Positions 5,675-62,097 of a DNA stretch of 64,000 nt are shown in pieces; the stretch's first letter is position 1; the number at the start of each line of letters is the position of its first letter. The notes under the pieces are model-generated. The model did no database searches. It was not told where the DNA came from and worked only from the letters and a program-made list of their open reading frames with translations. Made by a program: the position numbers and the translations under genes. Origin of the DNA: Sinomonas atrocyanea (GTDB taxonomy: Bacteria > Actinomycetota > Actinomycetes > Actinomycetales > Micrococcaceae); the NCBI RefSeq assembly GCF_030812675.1, contig NZ_JAUSTE010000009.1:62001-126000 (forward strand). Direction: 5' to 3'.

Positions 5675-6275
5675 TTCTCTCACTCCAGTAGATCGAGCGC
5701 GTCTGCCGGACGGGTCGAAGTGCTGGCGGACGCTATGTATTCAGGGCCTGCCGCCCCCGCCGCGCCTCATGCCGGCATCCGCAGCACGAGCACCCGATGA
5801 AGGGCTGTGCGTGGGGCGTGCCGAGGGCATGCGACAGGAGAAGTAGGCAGACACAAAGGACTTAACGACGTTAGGGCACGGCAAGGGGCGGCGTCAATTC
5901 GCCGTACCAGTCCTCGGCGGCGCCAGCGCAGCCGGACTCCTCGTGGGGAGGTTGTCCCCAGCTGTGGCCAACTCCACTCACAGGCCTGTGGACAGCGCCC
6001 TTGCGCGGCCCCCGCGGAGAACTTCACCAGTGTAATTCCTCGGCCCGCCGATGCCAGCTATCTTCTGGGTTGTCCCATCCTCTAGTCTGTTCGAGCGCCC
6101 TCCTCCACGCCTGTGGGTATCCCTGTGGATGAAACAAGCGGTTCAGAGGATGCCGGCGCACTGACGGGGGTGAAACGCCTCCCTGCCCGCGTCCGGTTCG
6201 CCCCCGGTCATCGTCGCGTCACGGACGCCGGGGCAGCGACGGCGTGAGAAGCGAAGCAGGCAGGTAGAGGAGCAC
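5675..6275. other. rpmH-dnaA intergenic region with scattered DnaA-box-like sites
   Basis: 601 bp with no convincing gene. It must carry the divergent promoters of rpmH and dnaA. DnaA-box-like nonamers are TTGTCCCCA at 5952-5960, CTGTCCACA (minus strand) at 5987-5995 and TCATCCACA (minus strand) at 6124-6132. In actinobacteria DnaA boxes here often serve dnaA autoregulation. Two overlapping open frames near 5770-6085 lack family features and were not called. Confidence 0.6.
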
Positions 6276-7700
6276 ATGGGACCAGAGGAAGCCAACGAAG
6301 CCAACACCCTTGGCAGTTCGTGGCGCCGCGTGGTGCGCCTCCTCGAGGAGGATGACCGGGTCTCGCCGCGCCAGCGCGGATTCGTCTCGCTGGCGCAGGC
6401 GCAGGGGCTCATCGGCTCAACCCTCCTCGTCGCCGTCCCCAACGAGCTCACCCGCGAGGTCCTGCAGGGCCAGATCAAGTCCGCCCTCGACGACGCCCTC
6501 CGGTCCGTCTTCTCCGAGGACATCCGGTGCGCGATCGACGTCGACACCGATCTGGTCCCGGTGCGCGCCGAGACGTTCGAGCCGGTCAAGCGGCCTGAGA
6601 TCCGGGAGGCCATCCGCGAGGAGCTGCGCCCGGCGCCGACGCCGCCGAGCACGTCCCAGGAGGTCAGTCGCCTCAACCCGAAGTACGTGTTCGACACGTT
6701 CGTGATCGGCGCCTCCAACCGCTTCGCGCATGCGGCGGCGGTCGCGGTGGCGGAGGCACCGGCCAAGGCGTACAACCCGCTGTTCATCTACGGCGACTCC
6801 GGCCTCGGCAAGACACACCTGCTGCACGCGATCGGCCACTATGCCCGCCGCCTCTACAACGGCATCCGCGTGCGGTATGTGAACTCCGAGGAGTTCACGA
6901 ACGACTTCATCAACTCCATCCGCGACGACGAGGGCACGAGCTTCAAGACCACGTACCGGAACGTGGACCTGCTCCTGATCGACGACATCCAGTTCCTCGC
7001 CGGCCGCACGGGGACCATGGAGGAGTTCTTCCACACGTTCAACGCCCTGCACAACAGCAACAAGCAGGTCGTCATCACCTCGGACCAGCCCCCCAAGGCC
7101 CTGCACGGCTTCGAGGACCGGATGAAGTCCCGCTTCGAGTGGGGCCTCCTGACCGACATCCAGCCGCCGGACCTCGAGACCCGTATCGCGATCCTCCGCA
7201 AGAAGGCCAACAGCGAGGGCCTCTCCGCGCCGGACGACGCGCTCGAGTACATCGCGTCGCGCATCTCGGCGAACATCCGCGAGCTCGAGGGCGCCCTGAT
7301 CCGCGTGACGGCCTTTGCGAGCCTGAACAAGCAGCCGGTCGACGTCGCGCTGGCCGAGATGGTCCTCAAGGACCTCATCACCGACGAGTCCGCCCTGGAG
7401 ATCACGGCAGAGCAGATCCTGACGGAGACCGCGGCGTACTTCAAGCTCACGGTCGACGAGCTCAACAGCAAGTCCCGCACGCGCACACTCGTCACGGCCC
7501 GCCAGATCGCGATGTACCTGTGCCGCGAGCTCACAGACATGTCGCTGCCGAAGATCGGGCAGGTCCTCGGCGGCCGCGACCACACCACTGTCATCCACGC
7601 CGACCGGAAGATCCGGGAGCTGATGGCCGAGCGGCGCGCGATCTACAACCAGGTGACGGAACTGACGAACAAGATCAAGCAGGCCCAGCGGGGTCTGTAG
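6276..7700 (+). CDS. dnaA: Chromosomal replication initiator DnaA
   Basis: 474 aa. AAA+ initiator that binds DnaA boxes and opens oriC. Domain I is about 1-100. The linker domain II is short (about 105-132), unlike the long linker of Streptomyces. Walker A (GDSGLGKT) is at 173-180 and Walker B (LLLIDDIQFL) at 231-240. Domain IV carries GGRDHTTVIHADRKI from residue 432, the DnaA-box reading helix-turn-helix. Start ATG with GAGGAG 5 bp upstream. Confidence 0.97.
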   Translation: MGPEEANEANTLGSSWRRVVRLLEEDDRVSPRQRGFVSLAQAQGLIGSTLLVAVPNELTREVLQGQIKSALDDALRSVFSEDIRCAIDVDTDLVPVRAETFEPVKRPEIREAIREELRPAPTPPSTSQEVSRLNPKYVFDTFVIGASNRFAHAAAVAVAEAPAKAYNPLFIYGDSGLGKTHLLHAIGHYARRLYNGIRVRYVNSEEFTNDFINSIRDDEGTSFKTTYRNVDLLLIDDIQFLAGRTGTMEEFFHTFNALHNSNKQVVITSDQPPKALHGFEDRMKSRFEWGLLTDIQPPDLETRIAILRKKANSEGLSAPDDALEYIASRISANIRELEGALIRVTAFASLNKQPVDVALAEMVLKDLITDESALEITAEQILTETAAYFKLTVDELNSKSRTRTLVTARQIAMYLCRELTDMSLPKIGQVLGGRDHTTVIHADRKIRELMAERRAIYNQVTELTNKIKQAQRGL

Positions 7701-8215
7701 CCGGCGGGGGCCTCGCGCCTGCGCGTGCCTTATTAACAGGCACCTGTGGACAAGGCTGTGGATGGTTAAGTGCACATCCTGCCGGCATGGGCTTAAAACC
7801 CTCAGGACCGCTGTGGAGAGTCGGAATGACACGAATCCGGGCGTCCACAGCCCACCCTCAGGCTCTCCGCTCTGGATCAACACCGGATGAACAGGCCAGT
7901 TCCGCGGCCGTCCGCGGCCAGAGCCGGTTATCCACAGTTTCCACAGCACTTATTAACACCACCAATTACAAGAATCTTCAGGCAGTTAGCCAACAGTTGC
8001 CCTTCCCCGCCCGGACGGCACTCCCCTGGGGCCAGCCACCCAGCCGAGCCGGGTCCAGGCCGGCTTGAATCCGTGAGCACCCATGGGGCTAAGCTGTGCT
8101 CAACGCTTGCTGTGGGTCCGCAGCCTCGAACCGAGGCCTTCGCCGGGCCCGGCCGGCACCCCTGAACGTGTGCCCCCGCGGCCAATGAGACAGCGATGAA
8201 AGGCGGAACGCGTCC
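7701..8215. other. oriC: Putative chromosomal origin oriC (dnaA-dnaN gap)
   Basis: 515 bp without a gene between dnaA and dnaN, the usual actinobacterial oriC place. DnaA boxes: TTGTCCACA (minus) 7745-7753, CCATCCACA (minus) 7757-7765, GCGTCCACA 7841-7849, TTATCCACA 7928-7936 and GTTTCCACA 7937-7945, plus weaker ones. The 10-mer CTTATTAACA occurs twice, at 7729-7738 and 7949-7958, flanking the box field; the stretch 7946-8000 is unusually AT-rich for this DNA and is the best candidate unwinding element. Leading-strand gene orientation on both sides agrees. Confidence 0.8.
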
Positions 8216-23581: not shown

Positions 23582-24463
23582 GTGACTGAAGGAAGCCCGG
23601 CGGCCGGCCCCGAAGCCGTCCCCGTCTGCCCCCGCCACCCTGACCGCGTCTCCTACGTGACGTGCCAGCGCTGCGGGCGGCCGGCGTGCCCCGAATGCCA
23701 GCGGCCGGCCGCCGTGGGCTTCCAGTGCGTGGACTGCGTCCGCGAGCTCTCCGGCAGTGCTCGGGCCACCCGGACGGTCTACGGGGGCCGGGCGCGGCCC
23801 GGCAGCCGGCCCGCGGTGACCATCGGCATCATCGCCGTGTGCGCGCTCGTGTACGCGCTGCAGTGGATCATCCCCGGCAGCGCCGTCTACGCGGACTTCG
23901 CCTACGCGAACTCGGCCACGCTGACCGCGGCCGAGCCGTGGCGCATGCTCACGAGCGCGTTCCTCCATTCCCAGGGCTTCGTGCTCCACATCGTCCTGAA
24001 CATGTACATGCTGTGGCTGTTCGGACAGGCCCTCGAGCCGCTGCTGGGCAGGGCCCGGTTCCTGGCGGTGTACCTGCTCTCGGCGATCGGGGGATCGGTC
24101 GGATTCCTGCTGCTCGCCCCGGGCCAGCCCGTCGCCGTGATCGGGGCCTCCGGGGCGATCTTCGGCCTGTTCGGAGGCCTGTTCGTGGTGCAGCGCCAGC
24201 GCGGCGGCGACGTCCGCCAGCTCGTCGTGCTGATCGCGATCAACGCCGTGCTCGGCTTCGTGGTCCCGGGCATCGCCTGGCAGGCGCACTTGGGCGGCCT
24301 CGTCACCGGGGCCCTGGCGACGGCGGTCATCGCCTACGCACCGGGCGGCCGGGCCCGCCTCGCGGTCCAGGCCGGCGGGCTCGTGGCCGTCGCCGTCCTC
24401 CTGGCGCTCGCTACGGTCGTGAAGGTCTCGAGCGTGCCCGCCCTCGGGGGAATCTCCCTGTAG
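23582..24463 (+). CDS. Rhomboid-family intramembrane serine protease with N-terminal zinc ribbon
   Basis: 293 aa. Residues 17-55 hold a Cys-rich ribbon (CPRHPDRVSYVTCQRCGRPA, CPECQRPA, CVDC). The rhomboid domain of six helices runs about 80-270. Catalytic serine is in GASGAIFG and histidine in AHLGGLVTG, with the oxyanion residues HIVLNMY. It cleaves membrane proteins inside the bilayer; substrate unknown. GTG start at 23582, 10 bp after ppiA. The zinc ribbon is a known companion in actinobacterial rhomboids. Confidence 0.92.
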   Translation: MTEGSPAAGPEAVPVCPRHPDRVSYVTCQRCGRPACPECQRPAAVGFQCVDCVRELSGSARATRTVYGGRARPGSRPAVTIGIIAVCALVYALQWIIPGSAVYADFAYANSATLTAAEPWRMLTSAFLHSQGFVLHIVLNMYMLWLFGQALEPLLGRARFLAVYLLSAIGGSVGFLLLAPGQPVAVIGASGAIFGLFGGLFVVQRQRGGDVRQLVVLIAINAVLGFVVPGIAWQAHLGGLVTGALATAVIAYAPGGRARLAVQAGGLVAVAVLLALATVVKVSSVPALGGISL

Positions 24464-24487
24464 CGCGGTGGCAGGCGCACCCTCTGG

Positions 24488-24522
24488 AACCCCCTGTGGA
24501 GAGCCTTCTCCACAGGGGTTTT
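24488..24522 (+). terminator. Terminator after the rhomboid gene
   Basis: Imperfect hairpin with about 14 paired bases around a GCCT loop (24488-24520), one bulged C, followed by TTTT. The arms contain TGTGGA/TCCACA, so it also resembles a DnaA-box half-site pair. Confidence 0.7.
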
Positions 24523-24678
24523 CCACATCTGTGCACAAACTGAGCTCTGCGCGCGCCGGCCTGCGCCGCCGCCGTCCCGGGCCGCGACAGGCCTTCCGGA
24601 CGCGAGCGGCGGGCTGTAGGAGGACCCGGTCCCCAGCCTGTGGACAAGATGGGGCCGACGCTGTGGACGGCTGTGGAT
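24519..24678. repeat. DnaA-box-like cluster A
   Basis: Intergenic stretch with TTTTCCACA (24519-24527), TTGTCCACA on the minus strand (24639-24647), and near matches at 24662-24670 and 24672-24680. It resembles elements B (25685) and C (27304) in box content but lacks their shared core. No gene seen. Confidence 0.5.
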
Positions 24679-25167
24679 TCAGGCGGCTCCCGACGCGAGC
24701 AGCTCGTCGAGCCGCTGGTAGCCCTCGTTCATGCCCTCGGTCATCCCGGCGGCGAGCATCGCGTCCCGCGCCTCGACCGTCTGGAAGGACGAGTGGACGC
24801 GGAGCCGGCAGCGGCCCCCGTCGAGGTCCTCGAGGACGGCGGCGTCGAGGGAGACGTGCCCGGGCGCGCCCTCGAACTCGAAGGTCTGGACCATGCGCCG
24901 CGGTGCGGTCAGCTCGTGGAACGACCCGTGGAAGCTGTAGCTCGCGCCCTCGGCACCGGTCTGGGTGAAGCGGTACGAACCGCCACTGCGGGCGTCGAAG
25001 TGGTCGATCACCGTGGTGTAGGCCCGGGGACCGATCCACTGGGCGAAGAGCGCGGGGTCGGTGTGGGCGCGGAACACGCGGTCGGCGGGAGCGTCGAATT
25101 CGCGGACGACGTCGACGAACGGCAGGCCTGGTTCGGCGGTCACGGTCGAGGTCTGGGTGGCGGTCAT
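24679..25167 (-). CDS. SRPBCC/AHSA1-domain protein
   Basis: 162 aa. START-like Bet v 1 fold of the activator-of-Hsp90 homolog 1 type: VREFDAPADRVFRAHTDPAL, FAQWIGPRAY, GGSYRFTQTGAEGASYSFHG and a C-terminal helix. Ligand or reaction unknown. Its ATG overlaps the stop of the upstream ArsR gene as ATGA, so the two are one operon; ArsR-AHSA1 pairs are common and the regulator probably controls this gene. Longer in-frame starts lie inside the ArsR gene and were rejected. Confidence 0.88.
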   Translation of the reverse strand: MTATQTSTVTAEPGLPFVDVVREFDAPADRVFRAHTDPALFAQWIGPRAYTTVIDHFDARSGGSYRFTQTGAEGASYSFHGSFHELTAPRRMVQTFEFEGAPGHVSLDAAVLEDLDGGRCRLRVHSSFQTVEARDAMLAAGMTEGMNEGYQRLDELLASGAA

Positions 25168-25571
25168 GGCTGGTGTCCTCTCTGCTGCGCGGCCGTCTGG
25201 GCCGCGTCCTGCTCCCCGCCGAGGTCCGGCTCGGCCGCGAGGACCGCGTCGAGGCGCCTGTACTTCTCCTCGGTGCGCTCCCGGTAGGCATCGATCCATG
25301 CGGCCAGCGGGCCGAAGGCGGTGGGGTCCAAGTGGCAGGGGCGGCGCTGGGCGTCGCGGCTGCGGGTGATCAGGCCGGCACCCTCGAGCACCCTCAGGTG
25401 CTTCGAGACGGCCTGGACGGTCACGGCGAACGGCGCCGCGAGCTCGTTGACCGTGGCATCCCCCAAGGCGAGGCGTGCCACCAGCTTCCTCCGGAGGGGA
25501 TCGGACAGCGCGGCGAACGCGCGGTTGAGCCGGTCTTCCTCGGTCTCCGTGGCGGGTGGGGCGGAGCTCAT
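25164..25571 (-). CDS. ArsR-family winged-helix regulator
   Basis: 135 aa. The winged helix spans about 15-95: RAFAALSDPLRRKLVARLAL, TVNELAAPFAVTVQAVSKHL, RVLEGAGLITRSRDAQRRPC. A single Cys near the end of the wing and no CxC metal site argue against metal sensing. The C-terminus DAYRERTEEKYRRLDAVL is the tail usual in ArsR regulators paired with AHSA1 proteins. ATG at 25571 has GGAGGT 9 bp upstream. Translationally coupled to the AHSA1 gene. Confidence 0.88.
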   Translation of the reverse strand: MSSAPPATETEEDRLNRAFAALSDPLRRKLVARLALGDATVNELAAPFAVTVQAVSKHLRVLEGAGLITRSRDAQRRPCHLDPTAFGPLAAWIDAYRERTEEKYRRLDAVLAAEPDLGGEQDAAQTAAQQRGHQP

Positions 25572-25906
25572 CGGCGCTGGACCTCCGTGCGGCGTCCGGA
25601 TCCGGACGCTATTCAATGGTCCGGTTGTTCAACTAAATGGTTGAATATACTCACGCTACGCCCGTCCCCCGCGGCGGTCAAGGGTTCCTGTCCACAGGAG
25701 ATGTCCACAGTGTGCGTAACTTACAGGCGTGTAGTTCGCGGCGCGCGCCGCGTGCAGGCGCGCCCGAGGAGCGCTTTCACCGGCCCGTTCCCCCAGCCTT
25801 GTCCCCAGCCTGTGGACAACTCTGGGCATAACGCTGTTGACAACCCCCCGGGCTCCTCCCCGATGTCGGCGCCCGGGCGTAGGCTCGGGCCAAGGAGGTA
25901 GCTGGC
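25572..25906. other. 335-bp intergenic region upstream of pirin-GNAT
   Basis: No gene seen. It holds the AT-richer promoter region of the minus-strand arsR gene (25605-25660, with GGTTGTTCAACTAAATGGTT as an imperfect dyad that may be the ArsR operator) and DnaA-box-rich element B. Confidence 0.6.
25685..25848. repeat. DnaA-box-rich intergenic element B
   Basis: Boxes: CTGTCCACA 25688-25696, ATGTCCACA 25701-25709, TTGTCCCCA 25799-25807, TTGTCCACA (minus) 25811-25819, TTGTCAACA (minus) 25835-25843. A 21-bp core at 25716-25736 (GTAACTTACA...TGTAGTT) is shared with element C at 15 of 21 positions. The flanking box order is shared as well, so B and C are copies of one element. Confidence 0.7.
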
Positions 25907-27301
25907 GTGAGCAATCTTGAACTCGACCCGGCCGAGACACTCTGCGCGGACGAGCCCGCCGCCCAGGGAATCGAGGTCATCGAACCCCGCGACGTGCCCC
26001 TCGGAGGACCGCGGGCGATGCCCGTGCGCCGGACGCTCCCATCCCGGCAGCGCTCCCTCGTGGGCGCCTGGTGCTTCCTCGACCACTACGGTCCCGACGA
26101 CGTCTCCTCCACCGGCGGCATGCGCGTCCCGCCGCACCCGCACACCGGCCTGCAGACCGTGAGCTGGCTCTTCACGGGCGAGATCGAGCACCGTGACAGC
26201 GCGGGCCACCAGGCGAGGGTCCGCCCTGGGGAGCTCAACCTCATGACCGCGGGGCGGGGCATCAACCACTCCGAGTACTCGACGCCCGAGACGACCACGC
26301 TGCACGGCGTCCAGCTGTGGACAGCGCTGCCCGGGCCGTTCCGCTCCGCCCCTCCGGGGTTCGAGCGGTACGTGCCGCCCGCCGTCGGGCTCCACGATCG
26401 GAACGGGGCCCGCGCGGGCGAGCTGCGGGTGTTCCTCGGTTCGCTGCACGGGTCGTCCTCCCCCGTCCGCACGTACACGGCACTGCTCGGAGCCGAGGCC
26501 GTCCTCGACCCGGGAGGCGAGGCGCTCCTGGAGGTCGCGGAGGAGTTCGAGCACGCGATTCTCGCCGACGGTGGGGCGCTCGAGGTCGAGGGCACCGCGC
26601 TGGCCGAGGCGCACCTGGCCTTCCTCGCCCCGGGACGCGGCCGCATCCGGCTCGCCAATCAGGGACCCCGCCCGGTGCGCGCGGTGATCCTCGGCGGCCC
26701 GCCGTTCCCCGAGGAGATCACCATGTGGTGGAACTTCGTGGGCCGCTCCCACGAGGAGGTCGTGGCCTTCCGCGACGCGTGGAACGGGCAGCTGGCGGGG
26801 CAGGGACCGACGGACGACGGCGCACCGTTCGGTCCCGTCGTCGAGCTCACCGGGGGCGAGCCGGCGCTGCCCGCTCCCCCGCTGCCCAACGTCAGGCTCC
26901 GCCCACGGCCGAGCGCGCACACGCCGCACGGCACTGCAGGAACAGCCGAGAAGGAGGGACCCATGACCGTGCAGGAATCCGAGAGGCAGTCTGGGAAGAC
27001 GGAGTTCGTCCACGCGGACCAGAAGCACCGCTACGAGGTGCACGTTGGAGGGGTGGTTGCCGGCTTCACCCAGTACCGGGAGAAGGAGGGCGGCTCCGTC
27101 TACGCGTTCGACCACACCGAGGTGGCCGACGGCTACTCGGGCATGGGGCTCGCGAGCAGGCTCGTCACCTACGCGCTCGACGACGTGCGTGCGGCGGGAC
27201 GCCGGATCCGCCCGTACTGCCCCTATGTCCGGGCCTTCCTCAAGCGGCACCCCGACTATGCGGACCTCGTCGAGGAGGGCTTCGTGATAGACGAGGACTG
27301 A
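25907..27301 (+). CDS. Pirin-family protein fused to a GNAT-type acetyltransferase domain
   Basis: 464 aa in one uninterrupted frame. Residues about 20-300 are a pirin double cupin: GAWCFLDHYGP, the metal-ligand motifs PPHPHTGLQTVSWLFTGE and GRGINHSEYS, then a second cupin. Some pirins are quercetinases, others regulators. Residues 353-464 form a short GNAT-like domain: the hydrophobic RYEVHVGGVVAGFTQY strand, HTEVADGYSGMGLASRLVTY (acetyl-CoA loop) and RPYCPYVRAFLKRHPDY, as in stand-alone 100-residue GCN5-related proteins. A strong internal ribosome site and ATG precede that domain, so two products are possible. GTG start for the long form, with GGAGG about 10 bp upstream. Confidence 0.85.
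   Translation: MSNLELDPAETLCADEPAAQGIEVIEPRDVPLGGPRAMPVRRTLPSRQRSLVGAWCFLDHYGPDDVSSTGGMRVPPHPHTGLQTVSWLFTGEIEHRDSAGHQARVRPGELNLMTAGRGINHSEYSTPETTTLHGVQLWTALPGPFRSAPPGFERYVPPAVGLHDRNGARAGELRVFLGSLHGSSSPVRTYTALLGAEAVLDPGGEALLEVAEEFEHAILADGGALEVEGTALAEAHLAFLAPGRGRIRLANQGPRPVRAVILGGPPFPEEITMWWNFVGRSHEEVVAFRDAWNGQLAGQGPTDDGAPFGPVVELTGGEPALPAPPLPNVRLRPRPSAHTPHGTAGTAEKEGPMTVQESERQSGKTEFVHADQKHRYEVHVGGVVAGFTQYREKEGGSVYAFDHTEVADGYSGMGLASRLVTYALDDVRAAGRRIRPYCPYVRAFLKRHPDYADLVEEGFVIDED
26951..26965 (+). promoter_or_regulatory. Internal ribosome site and ATG for the GNAT domain
   Basis: AAGGAGGG at 26951-26958 followed after 4 bp by ATG at 26963, in frame with the surrounding pirin-GNAT reading frame (Met353). 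Such a match inside a gene suggests separate translation of a 112-residue GNAT protein. Confidence 0.65.
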
Positions 27302-27303
27302 GG

Positions 27304-27430
27304 TTTGTCCACAGGGTTGTCCACGCCGTGGATAACTCACACTGATGTAGTTCCCCGCAGCGGGCCGGTATCCACCGACTTTCCCACACCCTGTGGATAA
27401 CTCGGCCGGCGCTGTGCACACCCCGTGTAC
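27304..27430. repeat. DnaA-box-rich intergenic element C
   Basis: Boxes: TTGTCCACA 27305-27313, TTGTCCACG 27317-27325, TTATCCACG (minus) 27327-27335, TTATCCACA (minus) 27392-27400, and TTGTACACG (minus) near 27422. The core at 27332-27352 (ATAACTCACA...TGTAGTT) matches element B. Together B and C bracket the pirin-GNAT gene in the same orientation. Confidence 0.7.
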
Positions 27431-27444
27431 AACCTCGCTCCCCC

Positions 27445-27522
27445 GTTCCGGGTACGGATCTCGGCGTCGATGCGGCGTTCCGGGTACGGATCTCGGCGCC
27501 GCTCCCGCCCTCCGGGTACGGG
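27445..27522 (+). repeat. 32-bp-period tandem repeat, array 1
   Basis: Copies begin at 27445, 27477 and 27509 (third truncated). Each starts GTTCCGGGTACGGATCTCGG and is followed by a 10-bp variable spacer. It lies just before the promoter of the SDR gene at 27543. Same family as the arrays at 39835 and 43003. Confidence 0.85.
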
Positions 27523-27542
27523 AGCGCCGTTAGCATGGCCGA

Positions 27543-28337
27543 ATGGAGCCCACCGTGGATGGACCCGTCCCGACAGACGGGGATCGGCCCCTCGCGCTCG
27601 TCACGGGGGTAGGACGCACCGTCGGTATCGGCGCGGGCATCGCCCGCGAGCTCGCGCGCCAGGGGTGGGACCTTGCCCTCTCGTTCTGGCGCCCCTACGA
27701 CAGCCGCATGCCCTGGGGTGTACAGGCCGCCGACGCCGAGGCCATCGCCGAGGAACTGCGCGGGCTCGGGGCCTCCGTCGCGACGATCGAGGCAGACCTC
27801 GCCGACCCCGCAGCCCCGGAACGACTCCTGGCGGAGGCGGGAGGCGAGCGGCCCGTCAGGGCGCTCGTGCTCAGCCATGCGGAGTCCGTCGATTCGGCGC
27901 TGCTGGACACGGGGCTCGAATCTTTCGACCGGCATTTCGCGGTGAACGTCCGGGCCTCCTGGCTCCTCGTCCGCGCCTACGCCCGGCAGTTCCCGGCCGA
28001 GTGGCACGGTGCGGGGCGCATCGTGGCGCTCACCTCCGACCACACGGTGGGGAACATGCCCTACGGGGCAAGCACGGGCGCACTCGACCGCATCGTCACT
28101 GCGGCGGCACGGGAGCTGGCTCCGCAGGGCATCGCTGCCAACGTCGTCAACCCGGGGCCCGTCGACACCGGCTGGATGGATGACGACACCCGCGCAGCCC
28201 TGGCCGCCCGGCAGCCTTGGGGGCGCCTCGGCACCCCGGCGGACATTGCCGGCGTGGTGGCCTTCCTCCTCAGCGGCCCGGGCGGCTGGGTCAACGGCCA
28301 GCTCCTCCACGCCGACGGAGGCTTCTCGGCTCCCTGA
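27543..28337 (+). CDS. SDR-family oxidoreductase with altered active site
   Basis: 264 aa. Rossmann-fold short-chain dehydrogenase related to 3-ketoacyl-ACP reductases. The nucleotide loop is changed to TGVGRTVGIGAGIA (15-34 region), and the usual NNAG is SHAE. The catalytic YxxxK reads YGAST: Tyr174 is present but Thr178 (ACG) replaces Lys. The nearest Ser (165) is 9 residues ahead rather than 12-13. It ends with GGWVNGQLLHADGGFSAP as in active relatives. The ATG lies 6 bp after TAGCAT (27531-27536), the leaderless layout. Substrate unknown; activity doubtful. Confidence 0.85.
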   Translation: MEPTVDGPVPTDGDRPLALVTGVGRTVGIGAGIARELARQGWDLALSFWRPYDSRMPWGVQAADAEAIAEELRGLGASVATIEADLADPAAPERLLAEAGGERPVRALVLSHAESVDSALLDTGLESFDRHFAVNVRASWLLVRAYARQFPAEWHGAGRIVALTSDHTVGNMPYGASTGALDRIVTAAARELAPQGIAANVVNPGPVDTGWMDDDTRAALAARQPWGRLGTPADIAGVVAFLLSGPGGWVNGQLLHADGGFSAP

Positions 28338-61143: not shown

Positions 61144-62097
61144 ATGGAGACCAGGCACCTGCGGTACTTCATCGCCGTCGCCGAGGAGCGCCACTTCGGG
61201 CGCGCCGCGCAGCGCCTGCACATGGCCCAGCCGCCCCTGTCCCAGCAGATCAGGCAGCTCGAGGAGCAGCTCGGCACCCAGCTGTTCGAACGGACCACGC
61301 GCAAGGTCGAGCTCACGCCCGCCGGCCTGCTCCTCCTCGACCGCGGCCGCCGCATCCTCCAGGACCTCGAGGAGCTCGAATCGGACGTCGCCGAGGTCGG
61401 CGCCGGCGCCGCCGGGGTCCTCAGGATCGGCCTCTCCGGCTCGGCCACCTACCGCCTCCTCCCGGCGCTCGTGGCCAAGGCCCGGACACACCTGCCCCAC
61501 CTCAAGCTGACCGTGCGCGGCGAGATGCTCACCCCCCAGATGGCCCTGGACCTCGAGGAGGGACGGCTCGACGTCGCGGTCCTGCGCCCGCCGGTCAGCT
61601 CGCCCGAGCTCGACCTCGCACCCCTGGAGCAGGACCGGCTCGTCGCCGCGCTGCCCGCAGGCTCCCCGCTCGCCCAGCGCCCGGAGCTCGACCTCGCCGA
61701 GCTCGCCGAGGAGGCCTTCGTGGGCTACCCCTCCGACTCCGTGGTCACGAGGACCTTCCGGCAGGCCTGCCGCGACGAGGGCTTCACCCCGCGGGTCGTG
61801 CAGGAGGCCGCCGAGACGTCCACCCTGCTCTCGCTCGTCGCCGCCGGCATGGGCGTGGCCCTCGTGCCGATGGAATCGCCCACCTTCGCGTTCGCCGGCA
61901 TCGTGTTCCGCCCGGTGCGGAACGCCCCCAGCATCGACCTCGCGGTCGCCTGGCGCGCGGGGGAGCAGTCGCCCCTCGTGCACCGGTTCCTCGAACTGTT
62001 CGACACCGTCCCGGCAGTCGGGCGGGGTCCACGCGGACCCCGCCCACTCGCCGTCGTCCGCTCCCCACTGCAGAAGGAGGCCGCGCGTGAAGATTGA
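61144..62097 (+). CDS. catR: LysR-family regulator of catechol genes
   Basis: 317 aa. Helix-turn-helix at 1-60 (METRHLRYFIAVAEERHFGR, AAQRLHMAQPPLSQQIRQLE) and a type-2 periplasmic-binding effector domain. The N-terminus is like CatR/BenM-type regulators, which sense cis,cis-muconate. ATG at 61144 has GAGGAGA 5 bp upstream. Unlike in Pseudomonas, it is co-directional with catB and overlaps it by 11 bp, so regulator and enzymes are probably one message. The upstream 93 bp hold an AT-richer stretch at 61020-61070. Confidence 0.9.
   Translation: METRHLRYFIAVAEERHFGRAAQRLHMAQPPLSQQIRQLEEQLGTQLFERTTRKVELTPAGLLLLDRGRRILQDLEELESDVAEVGAGAAGVLRIGLSGSATYRLLPALVAKARTHLPHLKLTVRGEMLTPQMALDLEEGRLDVAVLRPPVSSPELDLAPLEQDRLVAALPAGSPLAQRPELDLAELAEEAFVGYPSDSVVTRTFRQACRDEGFTPRVVQEAAETSTLLSLVAAGMGVALVPMESPTFAFAGIVFRPVRNAPSIDLAVAWRAGEQSPLVHRFLELFDTVPAVGRGPRGPRPLAVVRSPLQKEAARED

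Follow-up and report, generated by a model that had tools for sequence, protein, structure and literature searches.

Three clusters of DnaA boxes lie close to the replication origin of a Sinomonas draft genome, and we propose that they represent one ancient control element, present in three copies, that lies near oriC, is bound by DnaA, and likely restrains reinitiation of replication, a reading to which we assign a probability of slightly below 60%. A preliminary description of the same DNA had singled out two of these clusters, B and C, for bracketing a gene for a pirin-GNAT fusion protein. That view appears too narrow: comparison with relatives indicates that the pair is how a far more widespread element appears at this locus and that its bracketing of the gene is incidental.

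Three copies of one element downstream of oriC

The window, i.e., the whole stretch of 64,000 nucleotides analyzed here, corresponds to positions 62001 to 126000 of the 192-kb contig C9 of the 4.12-Mb draft genome. From dnaN onward, the gene order is recF, gyrB, gyrA, a DUF3566 gene, the genes for tRNA-Ile and tRNA-Ala, the cyclophilin gene ppi, a rhomboid protease gene, and element A, followed by a minus-strand ArsR-SRPBCC pair, element B, the pirin-GNAT gene, element C, and an SDR gene. The features concerned are as follows, in window coordinates, with > and < giving the direction of individual boxes.

6019-6038, no strand: the same dyad upstream of dnaA, GAACTTCACCAGTGTAATTC, among DnaA-box-like sites; matrix scores of 21.4 and 22.9 in two scans
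6276-7700, plus strand: dnaA (Pfam Bac_DnaA)
7701-8215, no strand: oriC region, between dnaA and dnaN, assigned by gene context
8216, start: dnaN
23582-24463, plus strand: rhomboid protease gene (Pfam Rhomboid), the conserved upstream neighbor by synteny
24494-24680, plus strand: element A, with boxes at 24506>, 24519>, 24530<, and 24639< and a dyad that is decayed in the window
25688-25737, plus strand: left block of element B, with boxes at 25688>, 25701>, and 25711< plus the dyad; model match with an E value of 6e-15
25718-25737, no strand: dyad of element B, AACTTACAGGCGTGTAGTTC; matrix score of 28.3, the highest in the 584 kb of this genome scanned
25799-25843, plus strand: right block of element B, with facing boxes at 25799> and 25811< and weaker ones at 25823< and 25835<
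25907-27301, plus strand: pirin-GNAT gene, between B and C and outside the element (Pfam Pirin, Pirin_C, and Acetyltransf_CG)
27305-27353, plus strand: left block of element C, with boxes at 27305>, 27317>, and 27327< plus the dyad; model match with an E value of 4e-13
27334-27353, no strand: dyad of element C, AACTCACACTGATGTAGTTC; matrix score of 24.3
27380-27421, plus strand: right block of element C, with facing boxes at 27380> and 27392<, then 27412-27421

Given the positions of dnaA (6276 to 7700) and of the start of dnaN (8216), elements A to C lie 16 to 20 kb from oriC (17 to 20 kb in the preliminary description). The sequence bears out that B and C flank the gene at 25907 to 27301 and share an orientation. 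Their common ends, CCTGTGGA[CT]AACTC, were located at 25809 and 27390 and point the same way. The 21-bp core that the two were said to share (25717 and 27333) is real, with 16 of 21 identities rather than 15. Cluster A, previously set apart as weaker, is a genuine third member with the same anatomy, except that its dyad is decayed in this species.

The common layout consists of two head-to-tail DnaA boxes, a third box facing the second, a 20-bp dyad, and, farther on, another facing pair. Box starts in the left block are 13 and then 10 bp apart in B and 12 and then 10 bp apart in C, the gap between facing boxes 2 and 3 is 1 to 2 bp, and the third box runs into the dyad, which in B reads AACTTACAG-GCG-TGTAGTTC. 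Between the dyad and the right block is a spacer that measures 61 bp in B and 26 bp in C and is longer in most relatives; in the right block, the facing pair is followed by weaker boxes. All three elements are present at each of the 10 other Sinomonas loci (11 of 11 sequences with the window). In the A, B, and C alignments of these 11 sequences, the two blocks are conserved, with a mean identity of 0.86 to 0.97 over the best 21 columns, and the spacer bins are poorly conserved, down to 0.05 to 0.41. The dyad core of A is intact in nine of the 11, the two exceptions with a decayed core being the window and S. atrocyanea DS1018. Each of A, B, and C can be told apart by a signature that is constant from one Sinomonas species to the next, so that the triplication is older than the genus. 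Directly downstream of element C, we also observed a direct repeat, GTTCCGGGTACGGATCTCGGCG (27440 to 27500).

DnaA boxes are markedly enriched in this part of the chromosome. Allowing up to one mismatch, TTATCCACA has 11 matches in the window, against a mean of 1.48 in shuffled sequences, none of 100 shuffles reaching 11. In the genome as a whole there are 49 copies of TTNTCCACA, of which 16 are on C9 where 2.3 would be expected (binomial P of 4e-10); the uniform genome-wide scatter that the preliminary description had named as contrary to its reading was thus not found. Among the 49 copies listed, every place with at least two within 250 bp is on C9. TTGTCCACA is listed as the high-affinity box of the DnaA proteins of S. 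coelicolor and M. tuberculosis (PMC4285127). Judged by these motifs, the elements are clusters of several predicted DnaA boxes located outside oriC and near it. Contig C9 has further clusters of this kind: one at C9:59792-60234, about 8 kb upstream of dnaA and surrounded by six parS-like sites, GTTTCACGTGAAAC, at 58.2 to 62.0 kb of the contig, and another at C9:12283-12441, about 56 kb away on the side of dnaA opposite to elements A to C, in which no dyad of score 13 or more was found. On contig C2, near 43.1 kb, a short tandem repeat of several copies of GTTGAGGGGTCATGTCCCT adjoins a TGTGGATAACTC.

Phyletic spread of the element

The pattern GTGNNNAACTTACANNNNTGT has matches in 62 of 295 genomes of the family, from 11 of 32 genera, and the reversed pattern, used as a control, has none in the 295. 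R1, a model of the left block built on sequence alone from 70 examples (alignment A1), recovered this block in 291 of the 295 genomes and in all 32 genera at E values up to 1e-3, with exactly three matches in each of 15 same-genus genomes. In the genome under study, R1 retrieves B and C with E values below 1e-12 and A at 1e-4, the remaining matches (0.003 or worse) all being on C9. At the order level, 148 of 248 genomes have matches, many of them weak, and this count includes matches with E values of 1e-3 to 1e-5 that cover only model positions of about 5 to 45 and are often plain box pairs, to which we attach no weight. At the class level, R1 matches 83 of 296 genomes (E up to 1e-5), and a class model, R2, made from 48 sequences (alignment A2), matches 205 of 394 genomes, representing 78 of 138 genera, at E values up to 1e-4 and mostly once per genome; part of these 205 matches is expected, because some training sequences come from genomes also in the class search. 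No match was obtained at the thresholds used in 189 of the 394 class, 100 of the 248 order, and 4 of the 295 family genomes.

Because alignment A1 was picked by a pattern that fixes 14 positions, the invariance of those positions is by construction. Of 52 elements parsed from R1 matches, 35 do not fit the selection pattern, and all 35 have a recognizable dyad, a count to be read alongside the preference of R1 itself for the dyad. In the class alignment, the columns at boxes 1 and 2 are near invariant, and the dyad begins 31 or 32 bp into the left block in all 44 anchored sequences.

A conserved location between the rhomboid gene and crgA

Distances from dnaA were collected for 40 genomes chosen for R1 matches, mostly single-contig assemblies; for some of them the genome length is a rounded figure or the start of dnaA was extrapolated from an alignment covering part of the gene. 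Among the 64 matches with E values below 1e-6 in this sample, 51 sit 13 to 26 kb downstream of dnaA, 63 lie within 120 kb of it, and 60 have its orientation. At least one such copy is found at 13 to 26 kb in 32 of the 40 genomes; the other eight comprise four of another family, with copies at 30 to 52 kb, and four with copies 64 to 110 kb away. In two genomes (G241 and G124), copies are also found on the opposite side of dnaA. The former has two inverted copies about 60 kb upstream and one near +18 kb.

In 20 family loci from nine genera, drawn from pattern-positive genomes, the rhomboid gene is present in 17, its 3' end being within 0.75 kb of the listed core in 13 of these, and 17 of the 20 have a CrgA-like gene on the far side of the element. 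In L129 to L131 and L143, the core is 2.6 to 4.4 kb from the rhomboid gene, beside which there is another dyad, and L141 and L142 have neither rhomboid nor CrgA. A second set of 20 loci, picked from strong R1 matches (19 from the class-level search and one from the order-level search; 18 from the class outside the order and two from the order), has ppi and/or rhomboid adjoining the element in 18 cases. Here, a CrgA-like reading frame faces the element within 150 bp in 17 of 20 loci by visual inspection, and all three of the facing proteins checked against Pfam are CrgA. In L209, L223, and L227 the element is reversed, with its 3' side toward the rhomboid gene. The element is thus typically situated between the rhomboid gene and crgA.

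The pirin-GNAT gene is not part of this arrangement. Over the best segment, it is 91% identical to its counterpart in S. atrocyanea DS1018 and 66 to 76% identical to those of nine other Sinomonas genomes, which places the window in this genus. In other genera that keep the element by rhomboid/crgA, the gene was not found at the locus, the one exception in 20 being L141, in which a pirin relative lies at a distance of 3.3 kb from the core. In four of 10 Sinomonas relatives, B and the pirin gene are about 1.1 kb apart; the intervening stretch is a polysaccharide deacetylase gene by Pfam in three of these (L015, L017, and L018, at about 9.0 to 9.9 kb), and in L016 the frame examined had no Pfam match. 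The pairing of gene and element, which the preliminary description had suggested comparing among relatives, was not found outside Sinomonas in these loci. As for the gene itself, the pirin and GNAT parts form a single fused frame in the window and six of the 10 Sinomonas relatives and two abutting frames in the other four (L020, L021, L023, and L025), and in the window an AAGGAGG and an in-frame ATG precede the GNAT part.

The dyad and its recurrence near dnaA

The dyad has the consensus AACTTACACCCGTGTAATTC in the 44 of 48 A2 sequences that could be anchored and is a perfect palindrome, GAATTACACGCGTGTAATTC, in L209. The matrix used to search for it was built from 44 element sequences; the scores of the element dyads are thus partly by construction, which does not apply to its emptiness elsewhere. 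In 184 kb of C9, only four sites score 13 or more, namely, those of B (28.3) and C (24.3), the one at 6019 to 6038 upstream of dnaA (22.9), and one at L012 (16.0), and 400 kb sampled from six other contigs of the same genome contain none. The dyads of B, C, and 6019 to 6038 are accordingly the only sites scoring at least 17.6 in the 584 kb scanned. When 400 kb of a 1.24-Mb class member was sampled, the top match was the element (22.2), together with four unrelated sites at 13.4 to 17.6. Across the 40 loci, each scanned over up to 20 kb (789 kb), sites of 14 to 16 or more are located within an element or close to one, and the most distant (L143:14005) adjoins the rhomboid gene.

The site upstream of dnaA has counterparts elsewhere. 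In 13 of the dnaA/oriC regions of 21 genomes, a dyad stands near the dnaA promoter or oriC with scores of 19.7 to 26.6, against 14.5 for the best of 100 mononucleotide shuffles; two others have a weak one (12.5), and six have none above 9. The dyad lies 180 to 395 bp upstream of dnaA in 10 of the 13 regions, running into TTATCCACA in six, and directly after dnaA in four, one region having both placements. No dyad of 14 or more was found in six class loci covering the dnaA-dnaN gap. With one mismatch allowed, the half-site GTAACTTACA has six sites in the genome under study, including that of B, versus 14 for the reversed control, and therefore it is no common operator. We know of no regulator motif that fits the dyad, having considered those of ParB (parS), LexA, NrdR, BldD, MtrA, GlxR, and Rex.

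Predicted function and comparison with known systems

From these features, we infer that the element is bound by DnaA and by a second, putative dyad-binding protein and that its action is negative. DnaA would load on the two head-to-tail boxes and the facing third box, and a putative dimeric protein would bind the adjacent dyad as well as, in many relatives, the dyads found close to oriC or to the dnaA promoter. The element would then lower free or active DnaA right after initiation and prevent early reinitiation, following the logic of datA and DnaA-box clusters. This brake could operate via titration or stimulated inactivation, with the dyad-binding protein in the role that IHF has at datA. 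Negative action appears the most likely because the element, located 15 to 20 kb from oriC, is duplicated soon after initiation. The suggestion in the preliminary description that the boxes titrate DnaA or modulate initiation is favored in its direction by the conservation, the position next to oriC, and the box architecture. A brake on DnaA is the simplest reading, and the opposite sign is possible.

DnaA-box clusters were reportedly described in S. coelicolor by Smulczyk-Krawczyszyn in 2006, under the names H69, H24, and D78, and in B. subtilis by Okumura in 2012, as DBCs. Like the element, they are DnaA boxes clustered outside oriC, and the passages cited have them restraining initiation, in one case by repressing untimely initiation in both organisms (PMC5742627) and in the other with the role of the B. 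subtilis clusters also being played down (PMC5295017). Those passages, however, make no mention of the three-box-plus-dyad anatomy at the rhomboid/crgA gap. One of the S. coelicolor clusters might be the homologous locus. E. coli datA is also a noncoding cluster of DnaA boxes with a negative action, and it is copied shortly after oriC, from which it lies about 0.47 Mb away (PMC5742627). Its box order differs from that of the element. Moreover, datA has an IHF site between its essential boxes, whereas the IHF consensus WATCAANNNNTTR was found in none of the 11 Sinomonas sequences of A, B, or C; another bending protein could possibly take its place. Since an IHF consensus and a clearly AT-rich stretch are both absent, the element does not qualify as a textbook datA or as an origin. 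In E. coli, DnaA boxes accumulate toward oriC in a manner favorable to titration (Nat Commun 2025, PMC12371093), but this is presented in the part cited as a trend and not as a discrete conserved element with a second motif.

An opposite effect would follow if the element were a DARS-like site, where DnaA molecules on the facing boxes interact head to head and release ADP, so that DnaA is reactivated and initiation promoted. On its reverse strand, the left block has three boxes in the order > < <, which is the order and orientation of the triplets in the E. coli DARS1 and DARS2 regions. For this comparison, we took the DARS1 region to be that between bioD and uvrB and placed the DARS2 triplet beside a published deletion primer; on rescanning, box starts are 14 and 12 bp apart in both. 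The element has start-to-start distances of 10 to 11 and then 12 to 13 bp, and hence we do not claim DARS membership; its facing boxes are separated by 1 to 2 bp rather than 5 bp, and, unlike the DARS sites, it is oriC proximal and lacks an IHF consensus. The literature cited names the opposition of boxes I and II as the hallmark of DARS (PMC8682772, PMC5742627), but a facing pair also occurs near datA, so the topology is not exclusive. In the alignment with E. coli DnaA, the residues at the positions of Asp269 and Leu290 are conserved, as they probably are in most DnaA proteins. A position beside oriC fits a postinitiation brake better. We regard a DARS-like role as unlikely.

Another explanation is that the element regulates its neighbors (rhomboid, crgA, ArsR, or pirin) in cis, the DnaA boxes being coincidental parts of a promoter, operator, or terminator. 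Element B lies in the divergent ArsR/pirin gap, the element is close to the end of crgA in class loci, and the first part of A forms a strong hairpin just after the rhomboid gene (24481 to 24560, z of -3.15). At 24485 to 24525, we noted the hairpin CCCCTGTGGAGA/TCTCCACAGGGG followed by TTTT, so that this portion of A may serve as a terminator as well. However, with crgA facing the element in 17 of 20 class loci, the gap is convergent and no promoter is expected there, and the element stays when the neighbors change. Simple promoter and terminator scans of 24300 to 27700 found none, the hairpin of A also going unlisted, and Rfam gave no matches up to an E value of 1 in 24400 to 27600. When six left blocks were folded, only those of A and of one relative, L184 (z of -2.94, better than 200 of 200 shuffles), were clearly more stable than shuffled sequences; the other four, B and C included, showed no clear gain. 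As covariation between the dyad arms is slight and only two of six folds are stable, the dyad looks more like a DNA site bound by a dimer than an RNA stem. An RNA-structure or terminator reading is only partly excluded, with two of six left blocks beating shuffles and Rfam empty. Overall, we consider cis regulation of the neighbors improbable.

The near confinement of the dyad to the element and the dnaA/oriC neighborhood in the DNA scanned also suits a chromosome-organization site (for segregation, nucleoid occlusion, or an SMC-type function) that is read via the dyad, with DnaA only corecruited. The cell division gene crgA is close by, and so are parS-like sites. Yet boxes 1 and 2 are near invariant as well and the dyad keeps its offset of 31 or 32 bp in 44 of 44 sequences, while the parS-like sequences differ from the dyad and lie elsewhere; this makes such a site quite improbable. 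That B and C are remnants of a mobile cassette carrying pirin-GNAT, as the preliminary description had allowed from their resemblance around a single gene, is rejected by synteny and has a negligible chance of being right, since the element occupies the same place beside rhomboid/crgA in other genera, in loci where the gene was not found, and the signatures that distinguish A, B, and C are constant among Sinomonas species. A secondary origin, despite the several DnaA boxes in two blocks, can be dismissed with similar assurance, the richest 40 bp of A, B, and C being 0.50 AT in the window (0.47 to 0.62 across the 11 Sinomonas sequences) versus 0.65 in the oriC region, so that no AT-rich unwinding element was found.

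Implications for replication control in actinomycetes

Returning to the element as a brake on DnaA, we tentatively put forward a more specific version, which we hold to be slightly more doubtful than probable. It may be a dedicated actinomycete element in which a three-box DnaA array was fused to a 20-bp dyad, settled early in the history of the class in the gap from rhomboid to crgA, and bound by a putative dimeric regulator shared with the dnaA promoter/oriC in several lineages, such that one protein pair would control the supply of DnaA, origin firing, and a remote DnaA-processing site. A search of the open-license literature found no description of a conserved DnaA-box element at rhomboid/crgA. 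To our knowledge, actinomycetes lack several of the replication controls of E. coli, and the timing of their chromosome replication is poorly known. If the proposal is true, the element would be the actinomycete counterpart of datA/DARS. As a conserved noncoding element at one locus with a precise anatomy, it offers a deletable target, and its dyad could serve as bait for the putative regulator common to the element and the dnaA promoter. A datA/DARS-like cycle outside the proteobacteria would thereby become directly testable in laboratory actinomycetes.
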